From positions 1 through 64,000 of the forward strand of contig CAJNAR010000007.1 in assembly GCA_905220665.1 (NCBI GenBank): a stretch of 64,000 bases of DNA, given 5' to 3'. Of the stretch, positions 44,723 to 52,260 are shown in pieces. A program made the translations under genes and the position numbers. The notes below the pieces were generated by a model that did not search any database, was not told where the DNA came from, and saw only the letters and a program-made list of their open reading frames with translations. Within the stretch, counting starts at the first letter, position 1, and each line of letters begins with the position of its first letter. Source of the DNA: Albugo candida (taxonomy: Eukaryota; Oomycota; Peronosporomycetes; Albuginales; Albuginaceae).

Positions 44723-45880
44723 CTACCGGTGTTCTCGCTCAATTGCCTCATGACCTGATTCCGACATGAGCATAGGCTTCCCCGAGCTGGCACGAGAGAT
44801 GATTATAATTCTGGGCCCATCCACTGAATGATTTGGCTCGGTTTCTTCCTCTTCGCCTGATCCTCGAGATGAATAGGTATCTTCCGTCGATTTGGCCTCT
44901 TCAAGTTCCTCTGAGTGTAACTGTTTATATCCACTTTTCATCGGGCTTGATGTTTCCTCGTTCGATCTCGCACGCAAGAGCAAGTCTTCAAGTTCTCCAC
45001 GTGGTAATGTAACCATTTCCTGGCTTTTCGAAAGTGGAGGGGGTGGCATACCGAAGAAAGTACCTTCTCTTGGTGGAAGTTCCTTTTCAGAGCTTTCTGG
45101 GGTATATCTTTCTTCTTCTTTCTTCATTTCTTCCTGTTTCATCCTCGCATAAGGAGAAGACATTTGCGATCCATTCGCATTGGCTTGCGATCCAGACAAC
45201 ATGACTTGGTTGTTTGGGTTGAACCCTCTCGTATCGAGTGTTGTGTCAGCTTCTTGGTATTTATCGACAGCATTCTCTTCCGCTTCCTCCACTCTTTCGC
45301 CCTTTTTCTCCTCTTTTTCCTCCTTCCCCTCTTTTTCCTCCTTCTCCTCTTTTTCCTCCTTCTCTTCTTTATCCTCATTTCCCTCCTTTTCCTCATTCTC
45401 TTCTTTTTCCTCCTTTTCATCACTCTCTTTCTCCTCTTGCTCTTCCGCTGCCTCTTTCGCGTGTGAAGTGGAGCCACCGTTGGACTTGACTACTTTGCTT
45501 TCATTTTCTGACGCCTCCAGCTGTGCAGTTTGCATTGCGGGAGTCTTCACGTCGCGTTGATGGTCAGTAGGAGGCAAAGTAGGAGCTGACTCAATAAGCT
45601 CAGTTCCAGTCTTGTGTTGACTTGATTCCTCATTCGGTTTGACATTCTTTTGGTCGGGTACCGGCGTACTTGGGTTTGGCGCTACGCCTCCAATATTCGG
45701 ATTCGTTGGCTGAGTGTTCACATTTGCGTTCGCAGTTGTTACAGTCGGAGTGGAACCCGTATTGTTTGGTGCGGAGGACGTCGGCGTTGATGTCGATGGA
45801 GTGTCGAAAGCCGAAGCAGAGGATGGAAACGTGACAGCGACCGCTGTGGAAATGATTTGAATAATCTTTGCGATTTGCAT
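44723..45880 (-). CDS. Secreted acidic Glu/Lys-repeat protein 1
   Basis: 385 residues, single exon. A clear signal peptide (residues 1-24, ending SSASAF) precedes a Thr/Pro/Asn-rich region (25-80). Then comes a charged tract of (E)EK-type repeats (about 145-210, e.g. KEEKEEKEEK). The coding DNA of this tract is a CTCCTTTTTC-like satellite at about 45300-45440. The rest is Ser/Glu-rich and disordered, with a short conserved hydrophobic piece near the end (PRIIIISRASSGK). It contains no Cys. The neighbour at 46516 has the same architecture, so these are tandem paralogues. No RXLR or CHxC motif is seen after the signal peptide. Function unknown; apoplastic or host-targeted secreted protein is an inference. 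Confidence 0.8.
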   Translation of the reverse strand: MQIAKIIQIISTAVAVTFPSSASAFDTPSTSTPTSSAPNNTGSTPTVTTANANVNTQPTNPNIGGVAPNPSTPVPDQKNVKPNEESSQHKTGTELIESAPTLPPTDHQRDVKTPAMQTAQLEASENESKVVKSNGGSTSHAKEAAEEQEEKESDEKEEKEENEEKEGNEDKEEKEEKEEKEEKEGKEEKEEKKGERVEEAEENAVDKYQEADTTLDTRGFNPNNQVMLSGSQANANGSQMSSPYARMKQEEMKKEEERYTPESSEKELPPREGTFFGMPPPPLSKSQEMVTLPRGELEDLLLRARSNEETSSPMKSGYKQLHSEELEEAKSTEDTYSSRGSGEEEETEPNHSVDGPRIIIISRASSGKPMLMSESGHEAIEREHR

Positions 45881-46515: not shown

Positions 46516-47628
46516 TTAGTGGGTTCGAAGAATGACCACTTTTTGCTCGGCTGGTTCTCTTTGCATGACAGAAAGCGGGACGTGAGAGTGTTGGCTAGCG
46601 ACGTGTGCGCTTTCATCAAAAATATCGAAAGGACTGATGTTTTCTTCGGTTTCCTCAGACTCGGAGGTTTCCGGTTCATCTTCGTCGGTAGACTTCTTGA
46701 TGATATAGACACGCTTTGAATCATCACGGCGTTGATGATGCTCGGTATCAACCATAGCGATTGAACCATCACTCAGACCACCATCAGTAGATATTTCTTT
46801 CTTTTCAATCTCTTTGCTCACTTCTGGCATCTCATGTGCGATAATTACGAGAGCTTTCTGATCTTTTTGATCGCCATTGTGACCGTGTGCCTCCGATTGT
46901 GTTGGTGCCGATGTTGGGTGCTCAGGGACAATAGGACCAGATCTTTGTTTCATGTCTGGTTTTTGAACAGGAGGCGGAGGCTGTTGTTGTGGAGATTCTT
47001 TGGGTTCGTCATGTTTCTCTTCCTCCTCTTTGTCTTCTTTCTCCTCTTTGTCTTCCTTTCCCTCTTTATCCTCCTGCTCTTTGCTTGCATGTTCTTCCTC
47101 CTTATTTTCATGTTCTTCCTCTTCCTCTTTAACATTTTCACCACTTTTGTTGTTTTCTTTCTTTTCGTCCGATTCTTCATCCTTGCTCTCTTCTGGTTTA
47201 GTATCATTAGGCTTTTCATCCTCGTTAGCCTTTACGTTCTCAGGCTTCTCTTGATTGTTATCTTTTTCGTCACCCTTTGGAGCTTCAGAAGATGTCGGAC
47301 TGCCTTCTTGTTTTGTTTGGTGAGCAGGAATTGGAGAACTTGATTGAGAAGTTTGCTTCATCGCAGGTGAATAAGCTTCCGGTTGCATTCCAACCGCTCC
47401 ATGTTGAGGAAGCGGACTCGCGTTAGGTGGATATCCATTCGAGCGTGTTGGAACTGGAGGTGCACTTGGTTTGAATGTATTTGCTTGGGAAGCGGTCTGA
47501 GATGCGCCTTGAGATGCGCCTTGAGGCGTAGGCTGAGGAGGAGAAGTGGAGGGAGTCTCAGCGTTGGAAACGTGGGCTGCGACAGCTAGCGCGATGGAAA
47601 TGAGGCCGAATGTCTTGTTTAACTGCAT
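46516..47628 (-). CDS. Secreted acidic Glu/Lys-repeat protein 2
   Basis: 370 residues, single exon, same plan as the gene at 44723-45880. It has a signal peptide (1-23, ending HVSNAE) and a Pro/Ser/Gln-rich segment with a GASQGASQTASQ repeat. A Glu/Lys/Asp tract follows (about 115-210, KEEEEEHENKEEE...), then a QQQPPPP linker. The C-terminal half contains KRVYIIKKSTDED and ends QKVVILRTH, comparable to the PRIIIIS stretch of its partner. No Cys and no recognised domain. Both start codons are followed by MQ(I/L)-type leaders and both genes face the same way. That supports origin by tandem duplication, although the repeat regions have diverged strongly. Confidence 0.8.
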   Translation of the reverse strand: MQLNKTFGLISIALAVAAHVSNAETPSTSPPQPTPQGASQGASQTASQANTFKPSAPPVPTRSNGYPPNASPLPQHGAVGMQPEAYSPAMKQTSQSSSPIPAHQTKQEGSPTSSEAPKGDEKDNNQEKPENVKANEDEKPNDTKPEESKDEESDEKKENNKSGENVKEEEEEHENKEEEHASKEQEDKEGKEDKEEKEDKEEEEKHDEPKESPQQQPPPPVQKPDMKQRSGPIVPEHPTSAPTQSEAHGHNGDQKDQKALVIIAHEMPEVSKEIEKKEISTDGGLSDGSIAMVDTEHHQRRDDSKRVYIIKKSTDEDEPETSESEETEENISPFDIFDESAHVASQHSHVPLSVMQREPAEQKVVILRTH

Positions 47629-48015: not shown

Positions 48016-50756
48016 TTATGCACTGGTTCTCGATTGAGCGGTTGAAGGGTAGAATGTAAAGTTTTCAAACGTTCCACTTTGTCGGGAAGAAAGGAGATGA
48101 CCTGTTCGGATTGTATCAATCACAGGCTCGGATGTGAATTCTGGATCAAAGTTACCCACATCCAACTCATTGAGTATGATCGGTTTCCACGGCGGCTGTA
48201 CCTCTTGCAGAAAAAGCAGACCCCAGCTGATATTAGTGAAAAAAGAATGTGTTTTGATATCGTCTGCGCCGTGCGCGCCAAGTCGATTCGTTGGCTCAAA
48301 TGTGAGCAATCGATCGATCAGATCCCGTGCATCTTCAGTCATATTGGCTGGAAATAGATCCTGGATGATCCCTGGTGTCATGATTCTTTTCACCATAAGA
48401 TCGTGATTCGCGTCAAGAAAAGGATGAAATCCCGTCAGCATTTCAAACATCAATACACCAAGCGACCACCAATCGACCACATGGCCATATTTTTGCATAG
48501 AGTAAACTTCTGGTGCGAGATATTCTGGGCTTCCTACGATGGTCGAGGCGCCTTGATTGGAAAACACATTCAGTTTAGATAATCCAAAATCTGTGACACA
48601 TATGTGCCCAGAATTTTTCAATAAGATATTCTCAGGCTTTAGATCTCGATACGCCACATTGAGATGATGTAAATGCTCCAATGCTAACACGAGCTCAGCG
48701 CAATAAAAGCGAGTCAATTCGTATGAGAATCCGCTTTTCGACATGTGGTGGAATACTTCTCCGCCGCTGCAATAATCAGTGACAAGATACAATTTATCTT
48801 TGGTTTGAAAGGAGAAACGAAGACGTGAAATGAATGGATGTTGGATTTCCTTGAGAATATATCGTTCTGTTTTCACGTATTCCTTCATATTGAGTTTGAC
48901 CAATTCTTTTCGAAGCACTTTGATAGCGTACAATTTCTGCGTATCGATTTTACGGGCGAGGAATACCTTTCCGATGGATCCCCGGCCAATGACCTTGATG
49001 AGGTCGAAATCGCTGATGGAGATGGAATTTAGTGTGCGTCGTAATGTTTCGTCCTTGGAGCTCTGATTGTTGGCAGAATTGGCCAATGTCAAGTTGCAAC
49101 ACTCGATTTGGAACGAGGAGGATACCGAAGATGTACTTGTGTCAATCATTGTGTTTCGTAATTCTGTGATGGAGGCCAAACGATTTTCATGCTCGCAATT
49201 CAATTCGGTAGTAAACATCCGATTCCGTCGACTTTGTCGGATCAAATCGATCGCATCCACTCGGCATTGCATCAAATGACCAAGCCAAGACGTCGTCCCA
49301 CGATCACATTCCCATACAAATTCTCGAGCAGAGATCTCACGATCCCGAGCTGCAACAAAGTATGTGAAAATGACATCCAAAGCGATGCTGATGGTCATGG
49401 CTTGCTTCGAGGAAGCATGTGGTATTGATGTGAATCTTTTTCGCCTACTTTTGCTCACAATACTGCTTACATCGCCAACAGATATAGAGACGCAATTGGA
49501 GCAGTTTGGATTATCCACATGCGCTCCAGCCGCGATGGCCGTATCAGATGTGAAGTTCATGGCCATTTTGCAGGCGAATGAGTGACTCGTAGAGAGCATT
49601 GCCAACGATGTGGCTGGAGCTTCCGCAAAAACAATGGCTTTCAGCATTTTGCAAAGCCTCTGCTTTCTTTCTTTTGTCAAAAAAATGACCAAATCGATAG
49701 CATCGGCTTGCGCGAGGATGAAATATTGCTTTGCTCCAAAATGATGAAACACTTTATCGCATACAAAACGAGTATATTCTTCTGGCGATACGATCGATCG
49801 ATCCTCTTTATCGCTGCCGCGTTTGTATGGATCCAAAATTACAACTGAAAAGTGCTGTTCGCGGGCTCTTCTCAGTGTGGGCAGCATGGATCCCAATTCT
49901 AATCCTTCAAAAAACAAAGTATCCGTGCTCCAAATACCAGGTCGAGCGTCTTCACTTCCATTAATCACAATGAGAAGATTGGCCTGTGTTTTCCAATCGG
50001 AAGTGATAAAGAGATCACAAAGAACTTGCTTTATTTTGCTCTGCCCATTTTTGTTGGAGTTAGCTTTGACTTGCATTTGGATGTGTGCACGCTTAAAGTC
50101 GAGTTCTGCCATCAGTTCCATTTCAATGTGGGAAATAGCTGCATGCATGGCTTCCGTCGCTCTTTTTCCTTCTTGCTCGTTGCTTACAAACTCGAAAATC
50201 GCTTGGTTGGAAGCACAGCATCGCAGAATTCCGTAGGGATCGAAATAATACGATAATTCCTTCAAACACGCCATCCGATCGGTCAGCTGAATGGACTGTG
50301 TGTTCTCGTCCTCAGTTCCACGTTTCTGCGATTCTAATGAGAGTTTCTTACCGTACCGTTTCCATATCATTTCGAAAATGGAGCGGTCCAAACAAACGAT
50401 ATAATGCTGTCCATCTCTGAACTGCACGCTTTCTGTAACAAGATCGTACGAGGATGCTTGTAGAATCCGACACTGTTCCAGTAATCCATCTGGACGGTCT
50501 TCCATCTCGACATCGTCCTCGAAACAGCTCTATAAAAACACTTTCATCAGTTGGAGCGCAAGGTTGGAAAATAGATTTGATTAAAGTATACCATGACAAG
50601 CTCGTTCACAGTCACAAGCCAAGAATCCATTGCCGTCACAAATGCAATTCTCGCATTGGAATAAACGACTTCATTGCGATTCAGCTGAGCTAACTGAACG
50701 CAGACGCGTACACTCGGCGCTTGCATCGTGTTTTCACCCGAGAATTCCGTCCACAA
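48016..50756 (-). CDS. Arb2-like domain fused to AGC protein kinase
   Basis: Two exons (50756-50592 and 50529-48016; 62-bp intron GTATAC...TTATAG), 892 residues. About 138-365 resembles the Arb2/FAM172 domain, an alpha/beta-hydrolase-like fold: YGILRCCASNQAIFEFV, ANLLIVINGSEDARPGIWS, then FSVVILDPY and KQYFILAQADAID. The usual HG-x-GG nucleophile elbow is not kept. About 560-820 is an AGC kinase: IGRGSIGKVFLAR (P-loop), AIKVLRKE, YRDLKPENILL, DFGLSK, and a T-loop STIVGSPEYLAPE. The AGC tail ends with a hydrophobic motif FENFTF, the docking/phospho-site used by PDK1 and TORC2-type kinases. The kinase should be active. The start could also be the Met at residue 11. It is divergent from COQ4, 60 bp apart. 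Confidence 0.88.
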
Positions 50757-50816: not shown

Positions 50817-51709
50817 ATGCGTTCATTGAGCTTTTACGGTCGATTTTCTCCGCAAATTTGCAGTAAATTGACACGCACAGGCTCGCAGTATGCCTCTATG
50901 TCGATCGGAAAGCCACAAGAGCGGCTTTTGTACGCGAATCACATGCCCACAACTCCTTTGCAGAAAATCATTCTTTCGGGAGTCTCTGCTGTGAGCGTAT
51001 TTGCGAATCCGAATCGAGCCGATATGCTCGCGAATCTCGGCGAATTGACGGGAACCAGTGCTTTACGGTCCATTCACGCGCAAATGTGCTCTAATTCGAC
51101 CGGAGTTCAGATTCTTTATGATCGCCCGCGAATCCGAAGTGATGCGATTAATAAGAGCGCATTGCGGTCGCTACCGAGCGATACGTTTGGGTACGCCTAC
51201 GCTCGTTTTATGGACTCCAACGGGTGCGTACCGCTTCCAATTTATATGATTGATTATTCGTTCGCTGTTAGTTTTGAGGCCGATGGGCGCTCGTACGTTC
51301 AGTTTGTGGATGACACGGATTTGGCTTATGTGATGCAGCGATATCGGGAGCTACATGATCTCTGGCACACTTTATTTGGGCTGCCTGCGACTCTGTTTGG
51401 TGAAATTGTGCTGAAATACATTGAGCTCGTGCAGACGGGTTTGCCAGCTTGTGCATTGAGTGGTTTTGTCGGTCAATTTTTGTTGTCGCGAGGTACGGAA
51501 TTCGTGCAGCTTTTCTCATTTGGCTGAGATGCACATTCACTGTAGATGATATGCGAGAGCTGGCGTGTGTGTATGTTCCGTGGGCGTACAGAGCCGGCAA
51601 AGAAGCATCGTTTTTGATGAACATATATTATGAGAAGGAATTTTCGACGCCTTTGGAGGAGTTCCGTGATCGATACAACATTCAAGTGGCTCCACCAAAG
51701 GAAAAATGA
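50817..51709 (+). CDS. COQ4: Ubiquinone biosynthesis protein COQ4
   Basis: Two exons (50817-51492 and 51546-51709; 53-bp intron GTACGG...TGTAG), 279 residues. COQ4 organises the coenzyme Q synthesis complex on the matrix face of the inner mitochondrial membrane. It is reported to act in the C1 decarboxylation/hydroxylation step. The zinc-ligand motif HDxxH is present (HDLWH, residues 180-184) within YRELHDLWHTLFGLP. Also typical are TPLQKIILSGVSA, GYAYARFMDSNG and the C-terminal VPWAYRAGKEASFLMNIYYE, which is only reached by splicing. The first 30 residues are Arg/Ser-rich without acids, like a mitochondrial presequence. Confidence 0.95.
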
Positions 51710-51813: not shown

Positions 51814-52260
51814 CTATTTATCATTCTTTGGCGATTCTTCTGCCGGGTCTGAAACTTGTTCCGTGGGCATTTCTTGCTTGGGGTCTGTGAGGAATTTCTG
51901 AAAAGCTTCACTTTCACGCAAACATTCCTGCTTCCCGATAGCGTCCACAATCTTTGCAAATTGTATCTCGCGTTCCTGCAGAATCTCTGGATTTTGCTTA
52001 TCCAAAAACAAGGCAAACGTCTTGGTACTTGGGAATTTGGGCAGACTCGATACGTCCTCAAGATTTGCATACAGCGTTTTGAAGTCTGTGTACCTGCGTT
52101 TCAGCAGCGTGTCATCCACTTGCACATTATAATAGACGACTTGGTCGGGCCCAATGCTGTGTCCGGTGACGCTGTAGGTACTCTCGCGCTTCTCCTTGGC
52201 GTCGACACGCTGATCGTCGGACTGCAGCGTTTGCGCGGGATTCGATTGAGTGCATCCCAT
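51814..52260 (-). CDS. PX domain protein with myristoylation-type N-terminus
   Basis: 148 residues. I start at 52260 rather than the upstream Met at 52296, because MGCTQSN fits the N-myristoylation consensus (Gly2, Ser6) with Cys3 available for palmitoylation. A PX (phosphoinositide-binding) domain covers about 30-135: YYNVQVDDTLLKRRYTDFKT, then LPKFPSTKTFALF and REIQFAKIVDAIG. In PX domains the RRY(T/S)DF block and the Pro-rich loop bind PI3P. An acidic disordered tail follows. Expected at endosomal or plasma membranes. The gene is convergent with COQ4 (104 bp between stops) and divergent from PACRG (about 300 bp). Confidence 0.88.
   Translation of the reverse strand: MGCTQSNPAQTLQSDDQRVDAKEKRESTYSVTGHSIGPDQVVYYNVQVDDTLLKRRYTDFKTLYANLEDVSSLPKFPSTKTFALFLDKQNPEILQEREIQFAKIVDAIGKQECLRESEAFQKFLTDPKQEMPTEQVSDPAEESPKNDK

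Follow-up and report, generated by a model that had tools for sequence, protein, structure and literature searches.

The window analysed here is a stretch of 64,000 nucleotides from the oomycete Albugo candida (assembly GCA_905220665.1, contig CAJNAR010000007.1, positions 1 to 64,000). On its reverse strand lies a gene that encodes an Arb2 domain fused to a protein kinase of the AGC group. The fusion is real and conserved; it is already on record, and the family to which it belongs is larger than in the papers that we found. The main open frame contains 837 codons from stop to stop; its first ATG, at 50505, yields a protein of 829 amino acids, and residue numbers such as His244, Ser267 and Thr655 are those of this 829-residue protein. 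The gene has the following features:

48016 to 50529, reverse strand: main exon, a single open frame that encodes the Arb2 domain, the linker and the AGC kinase with its tail
50530 to 50591, reverse strand: probable 62-base GT-AG intron (GTATAC...TTATAG), in agreement with the A. laibachii protein P0002
50592 to 50726, reverse strand: probable exon 1, 45 codons starting MQAPSVRV, from an in-frame join and the start of P0002
49351 to 50190, reverse strand: Arb2 domain, residues ~106-385, as the slice of the family alignment (A1) that went into the family HMM; the Pfam match covers 49822-50268
49774 to 49785, reverse strand: PEEY, with Tyr244 where the family has His (PDEH/PEEH), from the alignment
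49699 to 49713, reverse strand: AQADA, an eroded nucleophile elbow (Ser to Ala267), from the alignment
49219 to 49239, reverse strand: basic stretch RQSRRNR in the linker, KPRKQSRRLS-like in orthologues, a candidate nuclear localization signal by eye
48238 to 49002, reverse strand: protein kinase domain, residues 502-756 (PF00069, E 4.8e-66)
48529 to 48546, reverse strand: T-loop STIVGS with Thr655, a sequence motif
48052 to 48171, reverse strand: AGC C-terminal tail (PF00433, E 2e-9), ending in FENFTF (48052-48069)

Both halves of the protein are recognized by Pfam, bearing out the single-frame fusion that a first-pass annotation had proposed from the letters of the DNA alone. PF22749 matches residues 80-228 with an E-value of 7.6e-18 and 65.2 bits, well over the cut-off of 26.8. 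The match spans only positions 4-140 of the 260 in the profile, its first half; the second half of the Arb2 domain is seen with a family-built hidden Markov model (HMM) whose training set includes the window protein. In the kinase, the ATP lysine (YAIK), YRDLK, TDFG and the T-loop Thr655 are all intact, the Pkinase_C match covers residues 779-818, and the hydrophobic motif FENFTF, which the annotation had picked out together with the T-loop, occupies residues 813-818. With its catalytic Lys, Asp and DFG, its T-loop Thr and its hydrophobic motif, the window protein is an AGC kinase. An NCBIfam scan returned kinase models only, all far below their cut-offs. The solved structures closest to the kinase are those of SGK1, RSK, S6K and AKT, which have the kinase domain, T-loop, AGC tail and hydrophobic motif in common with the window protein; in contrast to them, it carries an Arb2 domain and has no PH or PX domain.

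The gene probably begins upstream of the main frame. A GT donor at 50591 and a TATAG acceptor ending at 50530 give an in-frame join, one among several open joins, and the A. laibachii orthologue P0002 (884 amino acids, 81% identical across the 829-residue query) opens with an equivalent exon, NELVM being joined to SCFEDD. The spliced product, including exon 1, is probably 882 amino acids long. The span first given for the gene, 48016-50756, overshoots at its upper end: the probable exon 1 reaches no further than 50726. Two separate genes, or an artefact of the reading frame, are ruled out by the unbroken frame and the equal domain order in orthologues.

The fusion had been taken to be undescribed, and here the literature disagrees. 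In the available text of Judelson & Ah-Fong (2010; PMC3019232), the AGC kinase PITG_06776 of Phytophthora infestans has an N-terminal Arb2 domain, found on no other known kinase, and has orthologues in P. ramorum, P. sojae and H. arabidopsidis; the same text reports that none was found in apicomplexans, ciliates or diatoms. Table 2 of that paper lists two kinases with Arb2 and two with FYVE, every one of them AGC. Figure 2 presents six proteins with novel accessory domains, PITG_01365 being named as FYVE-bearing; by elimination, PITG_01365 may also be the Arb2 example, in which case the order Arb2-FYVE-AGC was drawn already in 2010. A PH or PX domain is given there for only 6 of 20 AKT-like kinases in P. 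infestans. The window protein, with its N-terminal Arb2 on an AGC kinase, is by its sequence a member of this oomycete Arb2-AGC kinase family, of the PITG_06776 type. At the scale of the family, we found no account in open-access PubMed Central, a scope that leaves subscription papers, preprints and supplementary tables outside.

Relatives of the Arb2 region are spread across the oomycetes. Two homology searches with this region alone gave 32 and 34 proteins, many of them nameless; both searches require shared five-letter words and a length of 0.55-1.75 times that of the query, such that distant or differently sized relatives could escape. All matches with a named organism come from oomycetes (Albugo, Phytophthora, Nothophytophthora, Peronospora, Peronosclerospora, Bremia, Pythium, Globisporangium, Lagenidium, Saprolegnia, Aphanomyces and Thraustotheca), so that, together with the lack of a diatom orthologue in the 2010 paper, the description of the fusion as stramenopile-specific finds no support. 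The same domain order is found in other oomycetes: in alignment A2, an Arb2 match is present in 36 of 36 rows and a kinase match in 29, and we attribute the seven rows with no kinase match to gene models that are incomplete or merged. A chance pairing is excluded, given that the order is equal in orthologues and paralogues. Eight Phytophthora and Lagenidium orthologue models (P0112-P0116, P0128, P0138, P0139), some of them with no kinase, also carry RhoGAP and are probably merged neighbouring genes; a PBD match occurs in two A2 rows.

The A. candida genome itself holds a set of such genes. We searched its 38.9 Mb (196 contigs) with PF22749 and obtained at least 15 matches at at least 13 loci, counts that are lower bounds, compared to the two Arb2 kinases in Table 2 of PMC3019232. 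At all 13, a kinase shares its open frame with Arb2 or with some part of it. The PF22749 cut-off is passed at 12 of the 13 loci, at one of them (C166:236526, L039) only if its neighbours are counted in; the remaining locus (C148:378983, L040) reaches 24.2 bits against the cut-off of 26.8. When the translated frames are scanned with hmmscan, the window gene and L029-L038 pass (11/13), and L039 and L040 fall short. The family HMM, for which 33 of the 36 A1 rows were used, recovers all 13 loci, including five that have no row in it (L031, L035, L036, L039, L040; E 7.1e-100 to 7.5e-18), and finds no match in eight other kinase loci searched with about 1.5 kb either side (L010-L013, L015, L018, L023, L028). 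A genome-wide search with PF09757 found nothing, a weak negative given that the paralogue L029 passes this model by hmmscan (28.4 vs 26.6 bits). One paralogue is 100% identical to A. candida P0078 over the Arb2 region.

The paralogue kinases appear to be AGC-like, judging from their similarity to the window kinase (41-52% identity where listed), a T-loop-like motif at all 13 loci and an FxxF/Y-S/T-F/Y tail at 10; in L029, L031 and L036 the open frame stops before the tail. Pkinase_C gave no match at E 0.001 in the ten paralogue frames scanned. Added domains, as read from single open frames, vary: there are none in the window gene, L030, L033 and L035; FYVE is above the cut-off in L029, L031 and L039, below it in L037 and L040, and visible by eye only in L038; C2 and FYVE occur together in L032 and L034; and L036 (C146:312500-319500) has two or more PH domains ahead of Arb2 and kinase. 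This last architecture is not named in the available text of the 2010 kinome paper. With an AGC-like kinase at 13 of 13 Arb2 loci, Arb2 is a regular accessory domain in this group of kinases. What is new is the scale of the family, 13 Arb2-AGC loci in one genome. Should Arb2 prove to be the usual N-terminal module in a large group of oomycete AGC kinases, the unnamed N-terminal regions of the kinases PsYPK1 and PsZFPK1 could be explained, and how oomycete AKT-like kinases work with neither PH nor PX becomes testable.

In kinase trees, the window's group stands beside Arb2-less kinases, with support of 95/93 in the first tree and 99/98 in the second; in the first, the Arb2 label needs two changes, forced by the starred branches. 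With two long rows left out, a tree constrained to unite all Arb2 kinases is not rejected by the approximately unbiased test (p-AU 0.488). The Arb2-AGC kinases may have had one origin or two.

The Arb2 part had been described at first as lacking the usual nucleophile elbow of the hydrolase fold. This is true of the Albugo copy and untrue of the domain. In A1, which takes in 18 of the 33 proteins from the second Arb2-region search (the window's own excluded), the elbow reads AQADA in the window protein and A. laibachii and AYSFG in 17 of 17 non-Albugo orthologue rows. Throughout the second search, 31 of the 32 non-Albugo proteins retain LAYSFGA[KR], P0128 being the exception to the pattern, and the FYVE group has a textbook GYSYGG in 5/5 rows. 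His244, Ser267 and Glu295 are common to the Ser-bearing groups; both Albugo orthologues have Tyr, Ala and Glu. By alignment, the missing elbow is a loss in the Albugo copy, not a property of this Arb2 domain, and the window Arb2, with no Ser, Cys or Asp at the nucleophile position of the elbow, is predicted not to be an active hydrolase. Within the genome, the elbow Ser is kept at 5 of the 13 loci (L029, L031, L033, L037, L038; L031 by eye) and replaced at the other eight (window A, L030 G, L032 D, L034 E, L035 G, L036 A, L039 R, L040 R; L036 by eye). The pattern suggests a family of pseudo-hydrolases in which the elbow was lost repeatedly, and the Ser-bearing and Ser-less domains form a natural series on which to ask if the Arb2 fold ever had enzymatic activity. 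In L032 (Arb2-C2-FYVE-AGC), the elbow is AYDNAG, with Asp for Ser; alpha/beta hydrolases with an Asp nucleophile exist, and the likeness to them is probably a coincidence.

The AlphaFold2 model of the full-length window protein has a mean pLDDT (predicted local distance difference test) of 75.6, with a disordered linker. Its Arb2 region follows a strand-helix order, and blocks of ten residues there lie mostly at pLDDT 70-94, with dips to 46. The structure search was uninformative on Arb2, since the query was the full-length protein: among the 50 viral-library matches listed, 46 are named kinases and 4 are nameless.

These data bear on whether Arb2 is an active hydrolase fused to the kinase, the Ser-bearing members being true esterases or lipases and the Albugo copy dead. 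The near-invariant Ser motifs in the orthologue and FYVE groups, His244 and Glu295 retained alongside Ser267, and an Abhydrolase_1 match (PF00561, E 2.1e-5) in 1 of the 36 A2 rows would all fit such an enzyme. However, the fusion persists in the Albugo loci where the elbow Ser has become A, G, D, E or R, no conserved His lies beyond the last strand in the 17 rows of the window's orthologue group, and the related Hda1/Clr3-type Arb2 has no triad, according to the available part of PMC11878206. Because both His244 and Ser267 are lost in the two Albugo orthologues and the elbow Ser is replaced at most Albugo loci, catalysis is unlikely as the shared function, and we regard this explanation as improbable.

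Two published kinases of P. sojae belong, or probably belong, to this family. PsZFPK4 is PHYSODRAFT_360424 according to the available text of PMC10381902, and this protein, P0089 in our searches, combines Arb2 (matched by both PF22749 and PF09757) with FYVE, a kinase and an AGC tail; it is an Arb2-AGC family member like the window protein, from which it differs by its FYVE finger and its retained GYSYGG. The main text of PMC10381902 has 0 mentions of Arb2 and describes FYVE and kinase only. In that paper, the related kinase PsZFPK1 requires its FYVE and kinase domains and also its N-terminal residues 2-321.

The second, PsYPK1 (Ps350990), is 870 amino acids long. Its catalytic region spans 542-861, and PMC7010300, whose main text likewise has 0 mentions of Arb2, gives no known function for its N-terminal region. 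In the available text of that paper, this N-terminal region is necessary and sufficient for G-alpha binding, protein lacking residues 2-303 builds up in the nucleus, where the kinase is proposed to act, and knockout lowers the numbers of sporangia and oospores and raises the sensitivity to rapamycin. The size of PsYPK1 fits the window's orthologue group. From the DF that precedes the kinase to the C-terminus there are 329 residues in five of five complete Peronospora and P. infestans orthologues (P0111, P0118, P0130, P0132, P0133), equal to the 870-541 = 329 of PsYPK1, and 335 in the FYVE paralogues P0082, P0091, P0093, P0098 and P0099 of Phytophthora, Bremia and Peronosclerospora. On this agreement in size alone, PsYPK1 is probably the orthologue of the window gene.

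On balance, we lean towards Arb2 being a non-enzymatic, protein-binding module with an alpha/beta-hydrolase-like fold that steers an AKT/SGK/S6K-type AGC kinase. Arb2 would bind a partner in the cytoplasm, most likely the single G-alpha subunit, and in this way set the amount of kinase entering the nucleus; the kinase would be activated by phosphorylation of the T-loop (PDK1 type) and of the hydrophobic motif (TORC2 type). The genome has one G-alpha locus above the cut-off and a match to Rictor. In the orthologue P0118, the elbow lies at 317 and a basic KPKKQSRR linker at 482; by these positions, the deletion of residues 2-303 from PsYPK1 would break the Arb2 fold and keep the basic linker, which fits the nuclear entry. 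More speculatively, Arb2 could be the main accessory domain of the oomycete AGC-kinase expansion, sensing G-alpha in the PsYPK1 type and phosphoinositides with FYVE, C2 or PH in others, and replacing the PH and PX domains of AKT and SGK in this role; we hold this wider proposal only tentatively. If it is true, there is a direct route from a G-protein to an AGC kinase. We know of no such route in animals or fungi.

Several points weigh against the reading of Arb2 as a binding module. The size link to PsYPK1 is only suggestive, given that all complete orthologues span 326-336 residues, overlapping the FYVE value (P0126 = 335). Residues 2-303 of PsYPK1 stop short of the elbow; the deletion would cut into Arb2 and be no clean removal. 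According to the available texts, G-alpha left the phosphorylation of PsYPK1 unchanged (PMC7010300), and the location of PsZFPK1 is unchanged when the N-terminal region is removed, its GFP signal being strongest in the nucleus, as for free GFP (PMC10381902). The fast-evolving Albugo Arb2 may have lost its partner. Finally, a search of the genome for the TORC2 subunit SIN1 (CRIM domain), run with no positive control, was empty.

The first-pass annotation had instead read the fusion as a link to chromatin and RNA silencing. Under this explanation Arb2 would bind Argonaute or histones, as FAM172A, Arb2 and Hda1/Clr3 do, and take the kinase to the nuclear silencing machinery. A profile built from nine Albugo Arb2 domains picks out the Clr3 chain with Arb2, 5ikk, at E 1.4e-6, the only chain in the PDB below E 0.1 (the next is at 0.49). 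FAM172A (ARB2A), S. pombe Clr3 and yeast Hda1 are of the Arb2 family like the window protein, which itself matches PF22749; FAM172A we take to fall under PF22749 as well, and to our knowledge none of the three is fused to a kinase. Three loci with a Piwi domain are present in the genome. AGO2 is bound by FAM172A (PMC10205598) and histones by the ARB2 domain of Hda1 (PMC5036196), according to the available texts, and the nuclear role proposed for PsYPK1 would also be in keeping. However, FAM172A and Hda1 are only distant relatives, a search of the genome for Arb1 was empty, though run with no positive control, and the N-terminal region of PsYPK1, if this is an orthologue, holds the kinase outside the nucleus. 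What has been published on the probable relatives concerns growth, sporulation, G-alpha binding and partition between nucleus and cytoplasm (available texts of PMC10381902 and PMC7010300). The silencing link was carried over from distant Arb2 proteins and found no direct support here; we consider it as unlikely as the hydrolase.

A further explanation turns on the rates at which the two domains change. Among non-Albugo orthologues, the rates are even, with 1.39 changes per site in Arb2 and 1.36 in the kinase (one topology). In Albugo, Arb2 outpaces the kinase both on the stem (1.31 vs 0.55) and at the tips (0.33 vs 0.13), a rate shift that is specific to the window's orthologue in Albugo. In the FYVE group the corresponding values are 1.42 and 0.55, and 0.185 and 0.074 for its Albugo members. 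That Arb2 is decaying baggage in Albugo, where the kinase alone would matter, fits the faster change there and the loss of His244 and Ser267, but is the least probable explanation of all: a 2.5-fold Arb2 excess is usual in the FYVE group, so that the shift does not in itself prove decay; two Albugo species have an unbroken frame and Arb2 parts that are 75% identical; and pLDDT over the Arb2 region is mostly 70-94, apart from the dips.

Around the gene, a Coq4 gene (PF05019, E 3.3e-60) lies at 50817-51524 on the forward strand, in head-to-head orientation to the gene for the Arb2 kinase; with 90 bases between their likely start codons, the two may have a promoter in common. Past Coq4, a small PX-domain protein (PF00787, E 2e-9) is encoded at 51817-52260 on the reverse strand. 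On the other side are two adjoining reverse-strand frames, 46516-47628 and 44723-45880, for which a Pfam scan gave zero families above the cut-off. Both have signal-peptide-like starts by eye, followed by low-complexity Ser/Pro and acidic Glu/Lys-rich sequence, and they appear to be relatives, arranged in tandem, of a secreted protein.
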